DNA from: Halieaceae bacterium
Lineage (GTDB): Bacteria; Pseudomonadota; Gammaproteobacteria; Pseudomonadales; Halieaceae
Reading direction: 5' to 3'
Length of the DNA: 45,340 nucleotides
Assembly (NCBI GenBank): GCA_008081075.1
Contig: VMDB01000177.1
Coordinates: 1-45,340 of the forward strand
This document shows, piece by piece, positions 2,460-11,515 of this stretch. A program made the position numbers and the translations under genes. Every line of letters starts with the position of its first letter. Within the stretch, counting starts at the first letter, position 1. The notes under the pieces are model-generated. The model saw only the letters and a list, made by a program, of their open reading frames with translations, did no database searches and was not told where the DNA came from.

Positions 2460-2609
2460 CGTTTGTCGATTCATGGTGGGACGGGCGCAGAATAATCCGG
2501 GGTCTTCTGATGCACAATCATCTTTCAAGCGTGGTGCCCGATTTCGATATTTGGGAAAAAGACTCCCGTTATGGCACACTCCGTCGCAAATTTTTTGAGG
2601 TCTGAAGTT

Positions 2610-3929
2610 ATGCCCGCTCTGTTGTCTCGCACCACTGCCTTGTCTGCTGTAGCACTCCTGGGGTCGGCTTTTGCTCCCTTCGCCCTTGCCGAGACGATAT
2701 CTGGTGCAGATACCGCGTGGATGCTGACTTCGACGGCTTTAGTGTTGTTTATGACGATTCCCGGCTTGTCGCTGTTTTATGCGGGATTGGTGCGAGTAAA
2801 GAACGTACTGTCTGTCTTGATGCAGTGTTTTGCGCTGACCGCGCTCATGTCCGTTCTTTGGTTCGTGGTGGGCTATACCCTGGCGTTCGGATCTGCGGGC
2901 GTTGAACAGGGCCCGTGGATCGGTGATTTGGGCAACCTATTTTTGGCGAAGGTATCCATGGACAGTGTCAGTGGGTCAATCCCAGAGACGCTCTTCGTGA
3001 TGTTCCAGTTAACCTTTGCGGTCATCACGCCCGCACTCATCGTCGGTGGATTCGCCGAGCGAATGCGATTTTCAGCCATGCTGATATTCAGCTCTCTTTG
3101 GTTGGTTCTGGTATATGCCCCTGTCTGTCACTGGGTATGGGGTGGAGGCTGGTTGGGTGAAATGGGTCTTCAGGATTTCGCGGGCGGCGCAGTGGTGCAC
3201 ATTACAGCCGGTGTTGCGGCGCTCGTTGCGGCGACGTCTCTCGGTGGCCGTCGGGGGTTCGGTCAGACCGCGATGCCACCTCATAACCTGACTATGACGG
3301 TGACCGGCGCTGGAATGCTCTGGGTGGGCTGGTTTGGTTTCAATGCGGGGTCCGCGGTCGCGGCGGACAGCAGTGCGGCCATGGCTATGTTAGTGACGCA
3401 CCTCTCTGCTGCGTGTGGATCCCTCGCTTGGATGTGCATGGAGTGGATCCGTCATGGAAAGCCCTCGGTGCTGGGTATTGTGACTGGCATGGTCGCCGGT
3501 TTGGGGACCATTACACCTGCGTCAGGCTCCGTGGGGCCAGCAGGTGCGGTCGTGATAGGCCTTTCCGCGGGCGTTGTGTGTTACTTCGCAACGATAACGC
3601 TGAAAAACCGACTGGGTATCGATGACAGTCTGGATGTATTTCCTGTGCACGGTGTGGGCGGCATGCTGGGACTCTTTATGGCGGGAATCTTTTGCTCTCC
3701 GTCACTGGGGTTATTCAGCGGTAATGGGTTTTCTGACGGTGTTGAAGGTATTTCAGGCCAGCTGGCTATTCAGCTCTGCGGGATTGGCGCCACCTTTGTT
3801 TACACCGCAGTGATAAGCTGGGTGCTACTGCGTATCGTGAATGCGCTGGTGTCCTTGAGGGTCGATCAAGAGGATGAGACTGCGGGGCTTGATATCGTGC
3901 TACATGACGAGAGAGGTTACGACCTCTAA
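2610..3929 (+). CDS. amt: Ammonium transporter, Amt family
   Basis: Multi-TM protein with Amt motifs (GADTAWMLTSTALVLFMTIPGLSLFYAGLVR, GGAVVHITAG, DVFPVHGVGGMLG). ORF opens at 2571; ATG 2610 has an SD-like GAGG upstream. Confidence 0.92.
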   Translation: MPALLSRTTALSAVALLGSAFAPFALAETISGADTAWMLTSTALVLFMTIPGLSLFYAGLVRVKNVLSVLMQCFALTALMSVLWFVVGYTLAFGSAGVEQGPWIGDLGNLFLAKVSMDSVSGSIPETLFVMFQLTFAVITPALIVGGFAERMRFSAMLIFSSLWLVLVYAPVCHWVWGGGWLGEMGLQDFAGGAVVHITAGVAALVAATSLGGRRGFGQTAMPPHNLTMTVTGAGMLWVGWFGFNAGSAVAADSSAAMAMLVTHLSAACGSLAWMCMEWIRHGKPSVLGIVTGMVAGLGTITPASGSVGPAGAVVIGLSAGVVCYFATITLKNRLGIDDSLDVFPVHGVGGMLGLFMAGIFCSPSLGLFSGNGFSDGVEGISGQLAIQLCGIGATFVYTAVISWVLLRIVNALVSLRVDQEDETAGLDIVLHDERGYDL

Positions 3930-3943
3930 CACGGGCACTCACT

Positions 3944-5452
3944 TCAAAGCAGGGCTGCGAGCTCTACGGTGACATCTAGTCGCTCAAATGACGGTTGGCT
4001 CTGCTGTATTTCCCAGATCGTCAGGGGATGTGCCTCTCCCCAATCCGCGGGATAGGTCAAGGTGAGGGTCTCGCCTCGTGCGCACACGGCGAGGTCTGGG
4101 ATATTTTCCATTTCTTCCACGTGTTTCAGGATGACCGCCAACCTCAGTAGGATCATCATGCGGGCCACATTTTGTCGCCTGCGGCGGGGAATTGGTTCGA
4201 GGATCTCAGGCCTGATTTTTCCTTTCAGTCCGGATATCAATGCGGCCATGACCTCCTGGTCTTGCTGGGCGAATCCAGGTAAATCACTGTTCAGCACGAG
4301 ATAGGCTGAGTGCTGGGAGTAATTTTTCTGAGATACCGCAACGCCAATCTCATGCAAAGCCGCCGCCCACGTTAGCAGGTCCATTTCGCCGCTGGTTAGG
4401 TGCCATTCCGGTGCGGTTGCTGAGGCTAATGTCTCCACACGGCGACAGACCAAATCAGCGATCGCCGCGTCTACGTTATAGCGTTGCTGCATCGCCACTA
4501 CGGTGCGAGTGCGAACATCCTCATGGTCGAATCTTCCGATCAAGTCATAAATGACGCCCTCTCGCAGCGCTCCTGATGAAGTGCGCATTTCTTCTATTTG
4601 CAGCCCGTCAAAAATACCAAGAGTGATCGCCAGACCTGCGGTTACAACGCCTTTTCGCGTGTCGCTCAGCCCCTCCAGACTGAGTTCGTCAACGTGTCCG
4701 AAAGTCAGGAGTTTTTGCTTGAGTTTCTCGAGGGAATCGCGATCGATACCGTTTTCTCGCCAGCCCGCGCTTGCGATGAGGGTTTCGATTGCTCGGAGGG
4801 TGCCGGAAGACCCGACAGCTTCCTGCCATTGACTACTATGGTAGCCGCGCCGAATGTGCGAGACCTCAATTCGGGCTCGGTGGTACGCGGCGTCGAAACC
4901 ATCGCGATTGATGATGCCGTCTGGAAGGTAGAGTCGGCCATAGGATACGCAGCCCATCTGTAGGCTCTCGAGTTTTTTTGGTTCAAAGCGCTCTCCGAGG
5001 ATGAACTCTGTGCTTCCTCCGCCAATATCGATAACCAACCTGACATTGGCGTCGTCAGACAGAGTGTGTGCTACGCCTAGATAAATGAGACGAGCCTCTT
5101 CACGGCCGTAAATCACCTCAATAGGGGCGTTGATAATTTGTTCCGCTGGTTCGATGAATGCTTGGCGATTCTTGGCTCGTCGTAAAGCGTTGGTGCCAAC
5201 AATGCGAATTTTGTCAGGGCACGTGCTGTCTATCAGTTGCTTGAAGCGTTCCAGACAGGTGAGGCCGCGCTCAATTGCCGTTGTCGTGAGCATGCCCGAT
5301 TCGTCGAATTCACCGAGTTGCACTTTTTCGGCGAGGGCGTGGACCGGTTTTAGCTCTCCAAACTCTGATTTGGCGATCATTAGGTGAAATGAATTACTGC
5401 CCAGGTCGATCGCAGCCAAAAACTGCCCCTCGGTGCCGCTAGTGCCGGTCAC
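3944..5452 (-). CDS. ppx: Exopolyphosphatase / guanosine pentaphosphate phosphohydrolase (Ppx/GppA family)
   Basis: AAIDLGSNSFHLMIA, DIGGGSTEFILG and a C-terminal HD-like region; GTG start at 5452. Confidence 0.9.
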   Translation of the reverse strand: MTGTSGTEGQFLAAIDLGSNSFHLMIAKSEFGELKPVHALAEKVQLGEFDESGMLTTTAIERGLTCLERFKQLIDSTCPDKIRIVGTNALRRAKNRQAFIEPAEQIINAPIEVIYGREEARLIYLGVAHTLSDDANVRLVIDIGGGSTEFILGERFEPKKLESLQMGCVSYGRLYLPDGIINRDGFDAAYHRARIEVSHIRRGYHSSQWQEAVGSSGTLRAIETLIASAGWRENGIDRDSLEKLKQKLLTFGHVDELSLEGLSDTRKGVVTAGLAITLGIFDGLQIEEMRTSSGALREGVIYDLIGRFDHEDVRTRTVVAMQQRYNVDAAIADLVCRRVETLASATAPEWHLTSGEMDLLTWAAALHEIGVAVSQKNYSQHSAYLVLNSDLPGFAQQDQEVMAALISGLKGKIRPEILEPIPRRRRQNVARMMILLRLAVILKHVEEMENIPDLAVCARGETLTLTYPADWGEAHPLTIWEIQQSQPSFERLDVTVELAALL

Positions 5453-5526
5453 GGATAGAGGTCCTTGTGCGTGGCAAAGCCGGTGTCGCGCACTGGCGCA
5501 AGGATTATTGGGTAGTTTGGACTCAT
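5449..5526 (-). CDS. Candidate 25-aa small ORF (MSPNYPIILAPVRDTGFATHKDLYP) between alr and ppx
   Basis: Start forms a 4-nt ATGA overlap with the alr stop and the stop forms a 4-nt GTGA overlap with the ppx start. No homology recognised. Confidence 0.35.
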   Translation of the reverse strand: MSPNYPIILAPVRDTGFATHKDLYP

Positions 5527-6590
5527 TTTCGGTAGCGCCGCGTTGCTCTGCCAGTCATACGCGTGATCAATTCGTACCCTATCGTGCCACAGGCCTCCGC
5601 CACCTCGTCTACGCCCGGATTTTGTCCCCAGAGAATGGCGGGCGTGCCTATCGCCACAGAGCCGCAATCAGTAACGTCAACTGTCACCATATCCATCGAT
5701 ACGCGACCAACCAGAGGAACTTTTTTGCCATTAACGGCCACTGGCGTTCCACTTTGCGCGGACCAAGGGTAGCCGTCTCCGTAGCCCACAGGCAGCGTGG
5801 CGATCACGCTGTCGCGCTGCGCTGTCCAATGACCGCCGTAGCCAACGGACTCTCCAGCGCCCACCTGCCGAAGAGCCATCACGGTTGTGTGAAATTGCAT
5901 GGCCGGCTTCAATGCTGAATTGCTGGTTGATCCGGTGATGAGGCCACCGTACATGGCGTAGCCCAAGCGACCCCAAGTGTCTTTTGCGGCGAGCCCCAGG
6001 CGGCTGGCTGCTGAATTGGAGAGACTCATTTCATAGGGCCAGTCCGACACAATTTCGTGCCACCGGTCCAGCTGGCGCTTGCTAAGGGGGCTCTCGGGTA
6101 GCTCGGCGGACGCTAGGTGAGACATGAGCGTTAGGCGAGCGCAGCCCGCATTTTCCAGTGATCGTCTCACGGTAGACAGCTGTTCAGCCGGGAATCCGAG
6201 TCGATGCATTCCGGTATCGATTTTTATCCACAAGTGAGGCAGCGCATCGCCGCGCGGCAAACACCAGTCGACCTGGGAGTGCTCGTGCAGTGCAAGCCAT
6301 AGATTTTCTTCAGCCGCCAGCGCTACATCCTCAGCCGAGTGCGGCCCCTCTAGGATGAGAATGGGCTTGCCAATACCTGCAGCCCGAAGCGCTAACGCCT
6401 CCTCGGTAAAGGCCACAGCGAAAGCGTCAACTGAGCCTTCAATGTGCTGAGCGACTGGGACGGCCCCGTGTCCGTAAGCGTCGGCTTTGACAACGCCCAT
6501 GAATCGAGTGGCGCCCAGGCTGGTTTTCAGCACGGCGATATTATTGCTAATGGCGCCGAGGTCGATGGAAACAGTGGTAGCTCTGGGCAT
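5523..6590 (-). CDS. alr: Alanine racemase (PLP-dependent, fold III)
   Basis: PLP-lysine motif VKADAYGHG, plus KIDTGMHRLGF, SVGYGGHWTA and GRVSMDMVTVDVTD. Confidence 0.93.
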   Translation of the reverse strand: MPRATTVSIDLGAISNNIAVLKTSLGATRFMGVVKADAYGHGAVPVAQHIEGSVDAFAVAFTEEALALRAAGIGKPILILEGPHSAEDVALAAEENLWLALHEHSQVDWCLPRGDALPHLWIKIDTGMHRLGFPAEQLSTVRRSLENAGCARLTLMSHLASAELPESPLSKRQLDRWHEIVSDWPYEMSLSNSAASRLGLAAKDTWGRLGYAMYGGLITGSTSNSALKPAMQFHTTVMALRQVGAGESVGYGGHWTAQRDSVIATLPVGYGDGYPWSAQSGTPVAVNGKKVPLVGRVSMDMVTVDVTDCGSVAIGTPAILWGQNPGVDEVAEACGTIGYELITRMTGRATRRYRK

Positions 6591-7450
6591 CAGGGAGTGT
6601 CAAATCGATAAAGATGAAAAAGGCGCTGTGCCTCAGCCCAATAATTACCGGGCGTGCCATCGCCGACCGGCTTGCCGTCGATGGCTGTTACGGGTGCCAG
6701 TTCTTTTGTTGAAGAGCTCAACCAAACTTCGTCTGCTGACATAACTGTCTCGCGAGTTACCGGCCCGACTAGCGCCGGCCAATTGGTATGTTTTTCGATG
6801 AGCTCAAGGCACAAACGCCGGGTCACCCCCGGGAGCTTCTCATGGTCCAGTTCTGGGGTGTAGATCTGCCCGTCTTTAACCACAAAGACATTGCAGGCCG
6901 CCGCTTCAGTTAAAAGGTCATGTTCATTGAATAGCAGAACTTCTTCTGCTCCTTCATTAATTGCCTCCATCATATGAAGCACATTTCCGAGCAGCGCGGT
7001 GGATTTGATATGGCATCTGGCCCACCTCGCGTCTGCCCGGGTCACAGTCGTAAAGCAAGTCGCGGTTTCCATGTCGCCAGTTGACGGGGCATTAATAGGA
7101 AAGGTGTAGGCGAATACTGTGGGAATGGTGTGATCCGGGAATGCGTGTTGGCGCTTCTCAGCTACACCACGTGTGATTTGCAGGTAAATGCCTAGGTCAC
7201 CGCTCCCATTGCGTTCGATCAGCAGCTTAAGCACCTGTGAAAGATCCTCATCCGACGGCGTAATGTTCAGTTGAATACCCGCGAGCGAGTGCCTGAGTCG
7301 ATCCAAGTGATACTGAGCGGCGACCATTTTTCCTGCATAGCAGGGAATCACCTCATAGACGCCATCGCCGAAGAGAAAGCCGCGGTCCATGGGCGATATT
7401 TTCGCCTCAAGCAGCGGTAAGTATTCGCCATTGAGATAAGCGATTGTCAT
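6590..7450 (-). CDS. dat: D-amino acid aminotransferase (class IV, D-alanine transaminase-like)
   Basis: YLNGEYLPLLEAKISPMDRGFLFGDGVYEVI, PLP-lysine region CHIKSTALLGNVLHMMEA and LTEAAACNVFVVKDG are class IV DAAT hallmarks. Confidence 0.87.
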   Translation of the reverse strand: MTIAYLNGEYLPLLEAKISPMDRGFLFGDGVYEVIPCYAGKMVAAQYHLDRLRHSLAGIQLNITPSDEDLSQVLKLLIERNGSGDLGIYLQITRGVAEKRQHAFPDHTIPTVFAYTFPINAPSTGDMETATCFTTVTRADARWARCHIKSTALLGNVLHMMEAINEGAEEVLLFNEHDLLTEAAACNVFVVKDGQIYTPELDHEKLPGVTRRLCLELIEKHTNWPALVGPVTRETVMSADEVWLSSSTKELAPVTAIDGKPVGDGTPGNYWAEAQRLFHLYRFDTP

Positions 7451-8301
7451 AGGGAGCCCTCTTGATTCAGCAAGGTAATGATAGCTTCCACCAGCGCACA
7501 GCCGGCGCCTTCCGCAAAACCATCCTCGGTAGCTGTCTTTGCGCCGGTGACTCCATCAACCGCACCAGATTCAACTAGAAGCAGTAGGTCCTTGCGGATA
7601 TCCGCGATGATGTCCGCCCTGTCGTCATTATGGGAGTAGGCTAGGGCGCATACCGCATAGGCCGCCCAATTTGATACGTCTGCCACCACCAACTCATCGC
7701 AAGTGCTGATCGCAGGATGAATATCCAATTCACTTAAAACGTTGAGGGCTTTGCCCATGCCCATTTCATTGCCTCCGTCACCAATCGCTATCGTGGGACA
7801 CTCGGCTAGCTCGAGATAGGCCTCAGCGGGGGTGCAGTCCGCTGAAATGTCCTTTCCTGCCATGTTGTAGTACCGCCCGTCCCGTGCGGCCCCGGGACGC
7901 TCGATACTGATCACGAGATCAGGCGGTGCGTTGTAGTAGAGATTGATCACTGACTCCCGGATTTGCTCTCTGGAGCCGGTGGGCAATTCAAGGCATCGGA
8001 ACGCCGGACTCAGGCATTGGGTGAGGGCGGATTCGGAAAGGATCGTCGGTCGCAGTTGGTGCCGTTCGCAGGCCCGATAGAGTGCCATCGCCCCGGCGGG
8101 CCCATCTGTTTCAAAAGTGCCCGCCACGGGGAAGCCGGTGACGATGTAAGCATTACCCCGCTGCGTTCTCACCAGATGTGCCGCTCGCTCGAGATAGCCC
8201 GGGTCGAGTGCTCGTCTCACGCGACTCATGTGCCGATGGTCATGTTGTATCAGCAGCTGCTCAATCGCTTCGATGGTTTGTGTGATGTTAAGGCCATTCA
8301 C
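7447..8301 (-). CDS. DUF4392 protein, D-glutamate cyclase-like (homologous to the C-terminal part of eukaryotic DGLUCY)
   Basis: DUF4392 motifs (VTGFPVAGTFETDGPAGAMALYRA, IAIGDGGNEMGMGKA, SNWAAYAVCALA); GTG start coupled to pxpC. Confidence 0.8.
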   Translation of the reverse strand: MNGLNITQTIEAIEQLLIQHDHRHMSRVRRALDPGYLERAAHLVRTQRGNAYIVTGFPVAGTFETDGPAGAMALYRACERHQLRPTILSESALTQCLSPAFRCLELPTGSREQIRESVINLYYNAPPDLVISIERPGAARDGRYYNMAGKDISADCTPAEAYLELAECPTIAIGDGGNEMGMGKALNVLSELDIHPAISTCDELVVADVSNWAAYAVCALAYSHNDDRADIIADIRKDLLLLVESGAVDGVTGAKTATEDGFAEGAGCALVEAIITLLNQEGSL

Positions 8302-9224
8302 GATAATTTTGTCTCGATGTAGTGGTGCTCCAACCAGGTGATGCGATCCGCCTCCTGAGGCGTGATGGGGACAAGCTGCACTCGCTGACCAGGTCTGGAT
8401 TGTACTAAGCGCTGGCAGTCTGCTTCGATAACCGCGCCCGCCTTTGGATAGCCGCCAACCGTTTGACGATCATTGAGTAAAATGATGGGTTTACCGTCCG
8501 GGGGTATTTGCACAGCACCATAGCAGGTCGCCTCAGACAGCAGTGACTGAACGCCTGTATTCACCGGATCGCCCTCCAGTGCGATACCCATGCGATTGGC
8601 GCGTGGCGTAACCGAAAATGTCCCATTATCAAGTGCCTGCTTTGCGGCTGGGGAGAAGGCGTCGAACTGAAATCCGGGGACGAATCTCAGTGACAGCAGG
8701 TCCCGGTCTTGCACGGTGATCGGCGTTGGACATTGCGTGACGTGGGGGCGGGTGCCTGAACCCAGGGGCAGGGTGTCACCGTCTCGGAGATACCTGCCTT
8801 CGACGCCGCCAATACGCTCTCTGGGAGACGTGCTTCTACTGCCAAGCTGGAGGGGAGTGTCGAATCCTCCCTCGACGTGAAGATAGCTGTATATGCCTTG
8901 GCCGCGGGGTTTGACGGTGACTACTTGGTTTTCTACGGCTTCTTCGATTTTGCCGCTATCGCGCTCGGTGTTGCCAATGGTAACGACGGTCGGAGCGCCG
9001 GTTACGATGAATCGGCAATTGTGAGATGTGACGAAGGCGAGGTCCCCGTAGGCGAACTCCAATGCGGCTTCATTATCGCCATGTCCAAAGCAGTACTGGC
9101 CTGCGCGCAGCGCATAATTGTCCATGGCGCCGCTGGGAGGGATGCCGTTTCGCTGGTGACCCGCGCGACCGCTATCCTGAATAGTGCTGGCGATGCCCGA
9201 GCGAATGAGTGTCAGTGTTCTCAC
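8298..9224 (-). CDS. pxpC: 5-oxoprolinase subunit C (biotin-dependent carboxyltransferase-like)
   Basis: IRSGIASTIQDSGRAGHQRNGIPPSGAMDNYALRAG and ILLNDRQTVGGYPKAGAVIEADCQRLVQSRPGQRV; GTG start overlaps pxpB stop. Confidence 0.92.
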   Translation of the reverse strand: MRTLTLIRSGIASTIQDSGRAGHQRNGIPPSGAMDNYALRAGQYCFGHGDNEAALEFAYGDLAFVTSHNCRFIVTGAPTVVTIGNTERDSGKIEEAVENQVVTVKPRGQGIYSYLHVEGGFDTPLQLGSRSTSPRERIGGVEGRYLRDGDTLPLGSGTRPHVTQCPTPITVQDRDLLSLRFVPGFQFDAFSPAAKQALDNGTFSVTPRANRMGIALEGDPVNTGVQSLLSEATCYGAVQIPPDGKPIILLNDRQTVGGYPKAGAVIEADCQRLVQSRPGQRVQLVPITPQEADRITWLEHHYIETKLS

Positions 9225-9922
9225 GCTTTGTTCAGTTTCGCTTTCAAGGCCCGATAGTCAGCCATCGTAACGGGTTCAAATTTGACTGAATCGCCGACGG
9301 CGATCCGTGCAGTCGGATTCGATGCCAGATCAAACAGCGGTGTCGGGCAGGCCCCGATAAGTCGCCAGCCGCCAGGCGATACGCATGGATATACTGCCGT
9401 CTGCCGGTCGGCGATGGCGACCGAGCCTGCTTCCACACTCGCCCGGGGAGTGGTCAGTCTGGGTGTCGTCAATTGCGCGTCCACTGTACCGAGGTAGCAA
9501 AATCCCGGCGCAAAACCTGTAGCGTAAGCAAAATAAGCGCAGCCGCTATGTCGCTCTATAACATCGTCAACACTCAGATTCTTCTCCTCGGCCAGCCACT
9601 CGAGATCGGGAGCGACGCTGGAGTGGTAAAGCACGGGCAGGGTTACCGTTTTACAACTGGCTTCAGGTTCGTTGGCGGTTACCCTCAAACTTGTCGCACG
9701 TTCTTCCAGCCAGTGCTGAGCGCGCTCTCGGTCCAGCGCGAGCGGCTGGAAAAACAAAGTTAACGTGGTGTAGCCCACAACACTATCGACGAGGGCACCC
9801 GCAAATTGTCGCTGGGCTTGGGTTTGAATGGAGAGTAAGCCATAAGTCAATGACGGCGAGGGTGTCTCGGAGAACACCAAGCGCAATCCCAGACTACCGG
9901 CGGGGCCAACGGCAAATTCCAT
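9221..9922 (-). CDS. pxpB: 5-oxoprolinase subunit B (KipI family)
   Basis: LPVLYHSSVAPDLEWLAEEKNLSVDDVIERHSG, ATGFAPGFCYLGTVD, PGGWRLIGACPTPLFD. Confidence 0.92.
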   Translation of the reverse strand: MEFAVGPAGSLGLRLVFSETPSPSLTYGLLSIQTQAQRQFAGALVDSVVGYTTLTLFFQPLALDRERAQHWLEERATSLRVTANEPEASCKTVTLPVLYHSSVAPDLEWLAEEKNLSVDDVIERHSGCAYFAYATGFAPGFCYLGTVDAQLTTPRLTTPRASVEAGSVAIADRQTAVYPCVSPGGWRLIGACPTPLFDLASNPTARIAVGDSVKFEPVTMADYRALKAKLNKA

Positions 9923-10663
9923 TCACATTTTGTCCAGAGCGTTGCGAATAGCCTTGATCATTTTGATGGCGCCGGGTGTGTCGCCATGGACGCACAGCGT
10001 GTCAGCATTGACGGGTATGCGCTTACCTTTGGGCGTTCGAAGATTGTCTTTCGCAATCGCAATAGACTGATTGGCCGCTTCTTCCACGGTGAGGAGAGCA
10101 CCGGGTTTGTCGCGCGGAATGAGCAGTCCTCTACTCGTGTAGCCTCTGTCCGCAAACGCTTCGTAACGAAGTGTTAATCCGTGCTCAATGGCGAGTTGGA
10201 CGGTTTTTCTATCGCGCGGCGTTGCGAGGACAACCAGTGACAGGTCGGCATGCCAGCTGGCAACCGCCCTCATGACGTCACTGAGTATCATCGGATCGCC
10301 CAGCATCGCGTGATAGAGCGCACCGTGGGGCTTCACAAAGCTGACGCGTGTCCCATGGGTTCGCGCAATGCCATCCAGCCCACCGATCTGATGGTGAATC
10401 AAGTCAATCAATTCAGGTCCGCGAATATCCATTGCTCTGCGACCGAAGCCTTGCAGGTCTGGGTAGGATACGTGGGCCCCCACTTCTTTGTTGTGACGGC
10501 GTGCCATGGTCACGCAGCGACGCATGGTGCCGGGATCCCCAGCGTGTCCGCCGCACGCGATATTGGCGGCGTCGATCAGGGGCATGATGGTCTCATCATC
10601 GCCCATGGTCCAAGCCCCGTAGCTTTCTCCCATGTCACAGTTCAGAGTCAGTTTGTTTGTCAT
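9923..10663 (-). CDS. pxpA: 5-oxoprolinase subunit A (LamB/YcsF family)
   Basis: LNCDMGESYGAWTMGDDETIMPLIDAANIACGGHAGDPGTMR, KPHGALYH, NADTLCVHGDTPGA. Confidence 0.95.
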   Translation of the reverse strand: MTNKLTLNCDMGESYGAWTMGDDETIMPLIDAANIACGGHAGDPGTMRRCVTMARRHNKEVGAHVSYPDLQGFGRRAMDIRGPELIDLIHHQIGGLDGIARTHGTRVSFVKPHGALYHAMLGDPMILSDVMRAVASWHADLSLVVLATPRDRKTVQLAIEHGLTLRYEAFADRGYTSRGLLIPRDKPGALLTVEEAANQSIAIAKDNLRTPKGKRIPVNADTLCVHGDTPGAIKMIKAIRNALDKM

Positions 10664-11460
10664 CAGAAGATCGCCAGATCGGTATTTTTTAGGTCAGTAA
10701 CAAGCATGTGCCCGGGTTCATGGGTCACGGCAAGCGGCAGTTTTGCCGTCTGCAGGGCGACTTGGGGTGTAACGCCGCAGGCCCAGAAGACGGGTATTTC
10801 GGAGTCCTTTACCGTTACGGCCGCGCCAAAGTTCGGTTTGCTCAAATCAGCGATGCCTATTTGCGAAGGATCCCCAAGGTGTATGGGTGCGCCATGAACT
10901 GAGGGAAAGCGAGAGCATATCTGTATGGCACGTATGGCGTCTGAGGCGACCATCGGCCGCATACTCACCACCATATTTCCTGAAAATGGTCCTGATGCAG
11001 CGCAGGGGATGTGCGTGGTGTACATGGGCACATTAACACCTTCCGTAAGGTTGCGAATTTCAATTCCGGCATCCAGCAAGGCCTCTTCAAAAGAGAACGA
11101 ACAGCCAAGCGCAAAAGCCGTCCAGTCGGCCTGCCAGAGCCCGGAGATATCAGTGACTTGCTCCGCCAACACCCCATTTCGCCAAACGCGGTATTGAGGT
11201 AGGTCGACGCGGATATCGATGTCATCGCCTAATTCGGGAAGGGTGGGCGCGCCGGGCTCCGGACTCATGGCCAGCAAGGGACAGGGGCGGGGATTGCGTT
11301 GGCAAAAGGTTTGGAAATGATTCGCCGACGCCGCAGGCAGTATTACGATATTGGCTTGGACGTAGCCGGGCGCCAGCCCCGACGTTTGCGTGCTGAGAGT
11401 ACCCGCTCTGCATTGTGCTCGAATATTTTTGCCAGTCCCCTTGGCTTCAACTGCTACCAT
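10663..11460 (-). CDS. DUF1445 protein, putative hydro-lyase / D-glutamate cyclase N-domain homologue
   Basis: [43 protein letters not shown] and NMVVSMRPM are DUF1445 hallmarks; 1-nt stop/start overlap with pxpA. Confidence 0.85.
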
Positions 11461-11515
11461 CTCAATCCTGAAAATGTATAGTGTTCACGCATAATAATCC
11501 TAAAAGAGAAAGGTC

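Follow-up and report, generated by a model that had tools for sequence, protein, structure and literature searches.

A seven-gene operon of Halieaceae joining D-alanine/D-glutamate genes to 5-oxoprolinase genes and the separate halves of a putative D-glutamate cyclase

The operon and its products

The window analyzed here is the whole 45,340-nucleotide stretch of contig VMDB01000177.1 (assembly GCA_008081075.1, Halieaceae bacterium). It is contig C3 of a 2.13-Mb metagenome-assembled genome (MAG; G000) that is 70% complete, and genome-wide absences were therefore judged on near-complete congeners. At 5523-11460, its minus strand carries seven open reading frames (ORFs) in the order DUF1445-pxpA-pxpB-pxpC-DUF4392-dat-alr, an operon of D-amino acid and 5-oxoproline genes. 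Each junction overlaps or abuts (in operon order, TGATG, TGA|ATG, GTGA, GTGA, ATGA and TGATG). These ORFs, their order, coordinates and junction letters had been given by an earlier reading of the DNA letters, called here the sequence-only reading, and all were reproduced exactly. The features are as follows.

5523..6590, minus strand: alr, alanine racemase (TIGR00492, 298.6 bits, above the equivalog cut-off of 168)
6590..7450, minus strand: dat, class IV D-amino-acid aminotransferase (PF01063; best TIGR01121, 227 bits, cut-off 277)
7447..8301, minus strand: DUF4392 (GLUCM-like_C), proposed Mn-dependent D-glutamate cyclase (PF14336, 186.5 bits, cut-off 27.9)
8298..9224, minus strand: pxpC, ATP-dependent 5-oxoprolinase subunit C (PF02626, 243 bits; TIGR00724, 237 bits, cut-off 230)
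9221..9922, minus strand: pxpB, 5-oxoprolinase subunit B (PF02682, 194 bits)
9923..10663, minus strand: pxpA, 5-oxoprolinase subunit A (PF03746, 284 bits; NF003816, 301 bits, above the subfamily cut-off of 213)
10663..11460, minus strand: DUF1445 (YcsI-type), first gene of the operon (PF07286, 214.6 bits, cut-off 25; NF003969, 392 bits, cut-off 324)
11461..11515, no strand: divergent intergenic region between DUF1445 and an acyl-CoA-ligase gene, 55 bp

Pfam assigned the seven proteins, in operon order, to PF07286, PF03746, PF02682, PF02626, PF14336, PF01063 and PF01168/PF00842, with E-values of 1e-43 to 1e-84. NCBIfam, which lacks a model for DUF4392, gave the same family for each of the other six. 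The three PxpABC subunit genes are adjacent and all above the Pfam cut-offs, and their products are 37% (PxpA), 42% (PxpB) and 35% (PxpC) identical to the E. coli subunits. Dat scored best against the D-amino-acid aminotransferase (D-AAT) family, and the solved structures closest to it were D-AATs. Its pyridoxal phosphate-binding Lys149 and its R100/H102 pair aligned with the D-AAT structures 4pbc and 9pxs, and all three residues were invariant in the operon Dats. The Arg/His pair lies in the D-AAT position.

Promoter and terminator scans of the operon gave no more matches than scans of shuffled sequences. The operon is followed in the window by genes for an Amt-type ammonium transporter (2571-3929, assigned by eye) and a Ppx/GppA phosphatase (3944-5452).

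Conservation and loss of the five-gene block

DUF4392 was present in 25 of 59 relatives. It is rare beyond them: it was found in 10 of 299 genomes across the phylum and in only 2 of 292 across the class Gammaproteobacteria, the window's own counted. The class sample was drawn evenly from the class and contained genomes that were at least 90% complete. About 20 congeners had the full seven-gene order, with the divergent acyl-CoA ligase gene on one side and, in most of them, ppx on the other, following alr. Gene overlaps of -4 or -1 were found at most of their junctions. The nearest named relative, a Halieaceae MAG, had these seven genes with neighbours as in the window. G047 and G037, from other families of the order, also had all seven genes; in G037, DUF4392 and dat are about 1.2 kb apart. 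Partial versions were DUF1445-pxpABC-DUF4392-dat in G307 and G527, pxpA-DUF4392-dat-alr in G039, and DUF1445-pxpA-DUF4392-dat on two Pseudoalteromonas replicons.

The recurrence of the order with its overlaps in about 20 other genomes is more than chance, and it supports the proposal of the sequence-only reading that this is one coupled D-Ala/D-Glu/5-oxoproline operon. That reading had named a dat/alr adjacency unique to this strain as evidence against it. Our survey clearly showed otherwise, as the adjacency is conserved across the genus and also in further families.

Two loci differed in other ways. In L078 (G048), pxpABC and dat-alr were adjacent, with neither DUF gene, a phosphoribosyltransferase-domain gene lay between them, and recJ lay just upstream of pxpA. 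In L058 (G011), alr, pxpC, DUF4392, DUF1445 and ppx were each split over several frames, which probably reflects assembly errors rather than decay.

Six congeners without DUF4392 had the ligase gene, dat, alr and ppx in unchanged arrangement, and their site was missing exactly DUF1445-pxpA-pxpB-pxpC-DUF4392. The gap between the ligase gene and dat was only 91-96 bp in these genomes. In an outgroup-rooted core-gene tree, the six formed one clade (ultrafast bootstrap 100) nested among block-plus genomes, indicating one loss. The main splits of a tree of the five block genes matched those of the core tree. Given these shared splits and the single nested clade, we rejected the idea that the block had been acquired horizontally inside the genus. 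The five genes were lost together at this site, and dat-alr was retained between the same neighbours. Therefore, the five genes behave as a single separable and dispensable unit, and dat-alr is a separate, retained core.

D-glutamate supply and the link to peptidoglycan

A supply of D-Glu is essential for peptidoglycan. The glutamate racemase MurI is regarded as the usual enzyme for this supply and is also considered a drug target. No genome of the window's genus had a MurI match (TIGR00067) above the cut-off, and the weak matches in some reached only 25-29 bits. The near-complete members searched include G016 (99%), G010 (97%), G004 (97%) and G025 (96%). The operon alr was the sole alr match in the window's genome, and nearly all near-complete congeners had a single alr too. 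The window's genome had a single Dat. Genus members without Dat are explained by assembly gaps, because their alr was also missing or at a contig end. One congener had a second Dat-like gene outside the operon (G004:C247:3130-3984; 396 bits, 44% identical to the window Dat).

For wider counts, Dat was searched with a hidden Markov model built from the operon Dats and MurI with TIGR00067. Among the genera of the order, 8 had Dat without MurI, 13 had MurI without Dat, 2 had both and 0 had neither (Fisher p = 9e-5). The corresponding numbers for the 292 Gammaproteobacteria were 176, 56, 44 and 16 (p = 1.2e-18, which overstates the strength of the association because the genomes are not phylogenetically independent). 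In the class, Dat and MurI thus substitute for one another. At the threshold used, 192 of the 292 were without MurI, and a Dat homologue was found in 176 of those 192, indicating that the textbook picture of MurI may be the minority case in this class.

Dat is an established source of D-Glu (PMC8788868, PMC9963018). In Staphylococcus aureus, peptidoglycan D-Glu is provided by MurI as well as by Dat, and the strain that requires D-Glu is the double mutant in murI and dat (PMC9963018). The likeness to the proposed role of the operon is that D-Glu for peptidoglycan comes from Dat (PMC9963018, PMC8788868). The difference is that S. aureus has MurI alongside, whereas the window's genus has Dat without MurI, in an operon with alr and a proposed D-Glu sink. 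As alr is single, MurI was not found above the cut-off in the genus and dat-alr persists after loss of the five genes, dat-alr is better read as a D-Ala/D-Glu supply. These occurrence patterns suggested that alr serves as the sole alanine racemase and dat as the D-Glu source. Most likely, Dat and Alr together supply D-Glu and D-Ala for peptidoglycan.

D-Glu might instead come from a moonlighting DapF or from the MurD2/MurL epimerase route, and the Dat/MurI pattern would then have another cause. DapF acts in this way in Chlamydia (PMC5885031) and MurL in Xanthomonas (PMC8788868), and the 16 of 292 class genomes with neither Dat nor MurI by these thresholds would fit. MurD argues against it. Two MurD positions decide between use of L-Glu and D-Glu, and the D-Glu determinants are Asp and Lys (PMC8788868). 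The MurD proteins of G000 and G016 kept both (Asp182 and Lys348), so free D-Glu is expected. Only one MurD above the cut-off was found per genome. The MurD2-type residues (Glu197 and Arg358) were not found in the MurD of G000 and G016, nor was a second MurD found, and no MurL search was made. Xanthomonas MurD2/MurL is also a MurI-free D-Glu supply (PMC8788868), but the MurD here has D-Glu-type residues. In addition, Dat was present in every genus of the order without MurI. We consider these routes clearly improbable for the window's genus.

Outside the genus, the module was found beside peptidoglycan-recycling genes. A glycoside hydrolase family 3 (GH3) protein closest to beta-N-acetylhexosaminidase (NagZ-like) was encoded directly upstream of DUF1445 in L049 and L060, and GH3 was also found in L065. 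A NagZ-like GH3 gene and an RpiR-type (MurR-like) regulator lay beside the module in L051, and an RpiR-type regulator, NamZ and a NagK-MurQ fusion in L050. The hexosaminidase scores of the GH3 neighbours were 182-203 bits, against a cut-off of 207. These neighbours in other gammaproteobacterial families independently supported the link to peptidoglycan suggested by the sequence-only reading. Several genomes with such neighbourhoods also had MurI. The module Dat is then not the only D-Glu source there, so recycling is the likelier role outside the genus.

The same observations would also fit a wholly catabolic operon, in which peptidoglycan D-Ala and D-Glu would be salvaged to pyruvate and L-Glu and wall D-Glu would come from another enzyme. 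Recycling genes adjoin the module in genomes of family f151 and in Pseudoalteromonas, and where MurI is present Dat cannot be the sole D-Glu source. For the window's genus, this explanation is rather unlikely, as MurI was not found above the cut-off, alr is single and dat-alr stays after the five-gene loss. For the same reasons, the suggestion of the sequence-only reading that salvage is the main role of the operon was not supported in that form; its coupled D-Ala/D-Glu/5-oxoproline operon and the peptidoglycan link were supported. We also considered that the DUF pair might occur only with loss of MurI. This was rejected, as the f151 genomes G457, G527 and G596 and also G037 carry MurI too.

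The putative D-glutamate sink and the two DUF proteins

The mouse DUF1445-DUF4392 fusion (9030617O03Rik) converts D-Glu to 5-oxo-D-proline, and its domains were not separated (PMC5339696). The mammalian protein, DGLUCY, thus has both domains and the same cyclase route in common with the proposed sink (PMC5339696). The difference is that DGLUCY is one fusion and its 5-oxo-D-proline is excreted, whereas in the operon the two are individual genes, separated by pxpABC and linked to dat and alr. Our literature search found no paper that treated DUF1445 and DUF4392 separately in bacteria. The operon offers bacterial versions of the two halves of human D-glutamate cyclase as individual genes, in their native setting and together with a series of natural deletions. 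Because the halves are separate, a simple assay can answer which one is the enzyme.

In DUF4392, six acidic residues (E64, D66, E134, D175, E179 and E203) were invariant among 19 homologues. E64 and D175 aligned with E59 and D157 of TON_0340, residues whose mutation abolished its Mn-dependent activity (PMC5132392). DUF4392 retains the full set of six acids that form the Mn site in TON_0340. In DUF1445, C60, C120, C228, H189, H194 and H247 were invariant, and its solved relatives 3db9 and 2pif have no function attached. AlphaFold models built from two-row alignments had a mean predicted local distance difference test score of 30 for DUF1445 and 38 for DUF4392, and were not used.

In the phylum sample, DUF1445 was found in 8 of the 10 DUF4392 genomes and alone in 47 (p = 3e-5). 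Bacillus subtilis has DUF1445 with pxpABC and no DUF4392. These counts and the B. subtilis case suggested that DUF1445 has a 5-oxoproline role independent of DUF4392, and that DUF4392 mostly depends on DUF1445. The B. subtilis ycsFGI-kipIA operon is similar in that DUF1445 (YcsI) is clustered with pxpABC, and it also holds a Mn importer (PMC10448178). It differs in having no DUF4392, which was absent from the 14 control genomes, and dat and alr are not named among its genes (PMC10448178). From the asymmetry in occurrence, the evidence leans toward DUF4392 as the likelier, D-Glu-specific cyclase of the two. DUF1445 would then be the partner on the 5-oxoproline side, perhaps an epimerase.

Alternatively, DUF4392 could be a Mn-dependent phosphatase, as proposed for TON_0340, with an indirect link to D-Glu. 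TON_0340 (PDB 4dwz, 5gl2-4) shares the DUF4392 fold family and the six acidic metal residues, which are conserved in the operon DUF4392, and it hydrolyzes AMP with Mn (PMC5132392). However, its activity is very low (kcat/KM ~190 per M per s) and was measured on arbitrary substrates. TON_0340 also differs in being archaeal and in having no DUF1445 partner, and its phosphatase assignment comes from this weak activity. The module context consists of D-amino acid and 5-oxoproline genes throughout. We regard the phosphatase function as very improbable.

Taken together, we propose that one translationally coupled operon holds both a D-Glu source (alr and dat) and a sink in which D-Glu would be turned back into glutamate via 5-oxoproline, with a probability of about 0.58. 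The activities, the direction of flux and the steps given to the DUF proteins are read from family membership and gene context. Alr would convert L-Ala to D-Ala, and Dat would convert D-Ala and 2-oxoglutarate reversibly to D-Glu and pyruvate. D-Glu would go to MurD, feeding peptidoglycan synthesis in a lineage without MurI. D-Glu in excess or from peptidoglycan would be converted to 5-oxo-D-proline, most likely by the Mn-site DUF4392 together with DUF1445. The product may be inverted to the L form by DUF1445, and PxpABC would use ATP to convert 5-oxoproline to glutamate. The operon is real, conserved and coherent, with known parts in a new arrangement, and a source joined to a sink differs from pure salvage.

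Several observations weigh against this proposal. Dat was under the TIGR01121 equivalog cut-off (227 vs 277 bits) and the NF005209 subfamily cut-off (226 vs 320 bits), and PxpB (138.7 vs 145.6 bits) and PxpC (210 vs 500) were under their equivalog cut-offs. These three proteins therefore belong to their families but are somewhat removed from the characterised members. The f151 genomes and G037 have the module or the DUF pair together with MurI, indicating that possession of the module does not depend on loss of MurI. PxpABC acting on 5-oxo-D-proline would regenerate D-Glu, resulting in a futile cycle. An epimerase function of either DUF is hard to square with mammals, which carry the two domains and excrete 5-oxo-D-proline; in humans, the D form is the main one excreted (PMC5339696).

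The futile cycle itself could be the function. The cyclase would park excess D-Glu as 5-oxo-D-proline, and PxpABC would take the D form and return D-Glu on need. The low PxpB and PxpC scores against canonical models leave room for altered stereospecificity, and the product of the mammalian fusion is 5-oxo-D-proline (PMC5339696). However, such a cycle spends ATP with no net change, the published growth substrate of PxpABC is 5-oxo-L-proline (PMC13274462), and the low scores equally fit simple divergence. We consider it distinctly unlikely. A sharper form of our source-and-sink proposal is that DUF4392 is a stand-alone Mn-dependent cyclase and DUF1445 an epimerase using cysteine thiols. With PxpABC, they would form a one-way, ATP-driven path from D-Glu to L-Glu that balances the Dat supply in bacteria without glutamate racemase. 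We put this form forward tentatively and think it somewhat unlikely.

DUF4392 was also found in other types of protein. A giant ORF of 2578 aa on a Ralstonia wenshanensis plasmid (L066, 4527-12263) contains DUF4781, two DUF4392 and one Asp/Glu-racemase domain; it is near a DUF1445 gene and beside type III secretion genes and a glutaminase gene. Another of 3573 aa in G604 (L052, 4680-15401) has a racemase-like stretch flanked by two DUF4392 stretches, and a DUF1445 gene nearby. Long DUF4392 proteins of about 330-380 aa were found in Alpha- and Betaproteobacteria (L062, L063, L067, L068 and L069), with no pxp genes nearby. Their neighbours were Asp/Glu racemase, arylmalonate decarboxylase, UbiD, RidA or selenocysteine-synthase-like genes, and the RefSeq name 'glutamate cyclase domain' may be a wrong fit for these long proteins.

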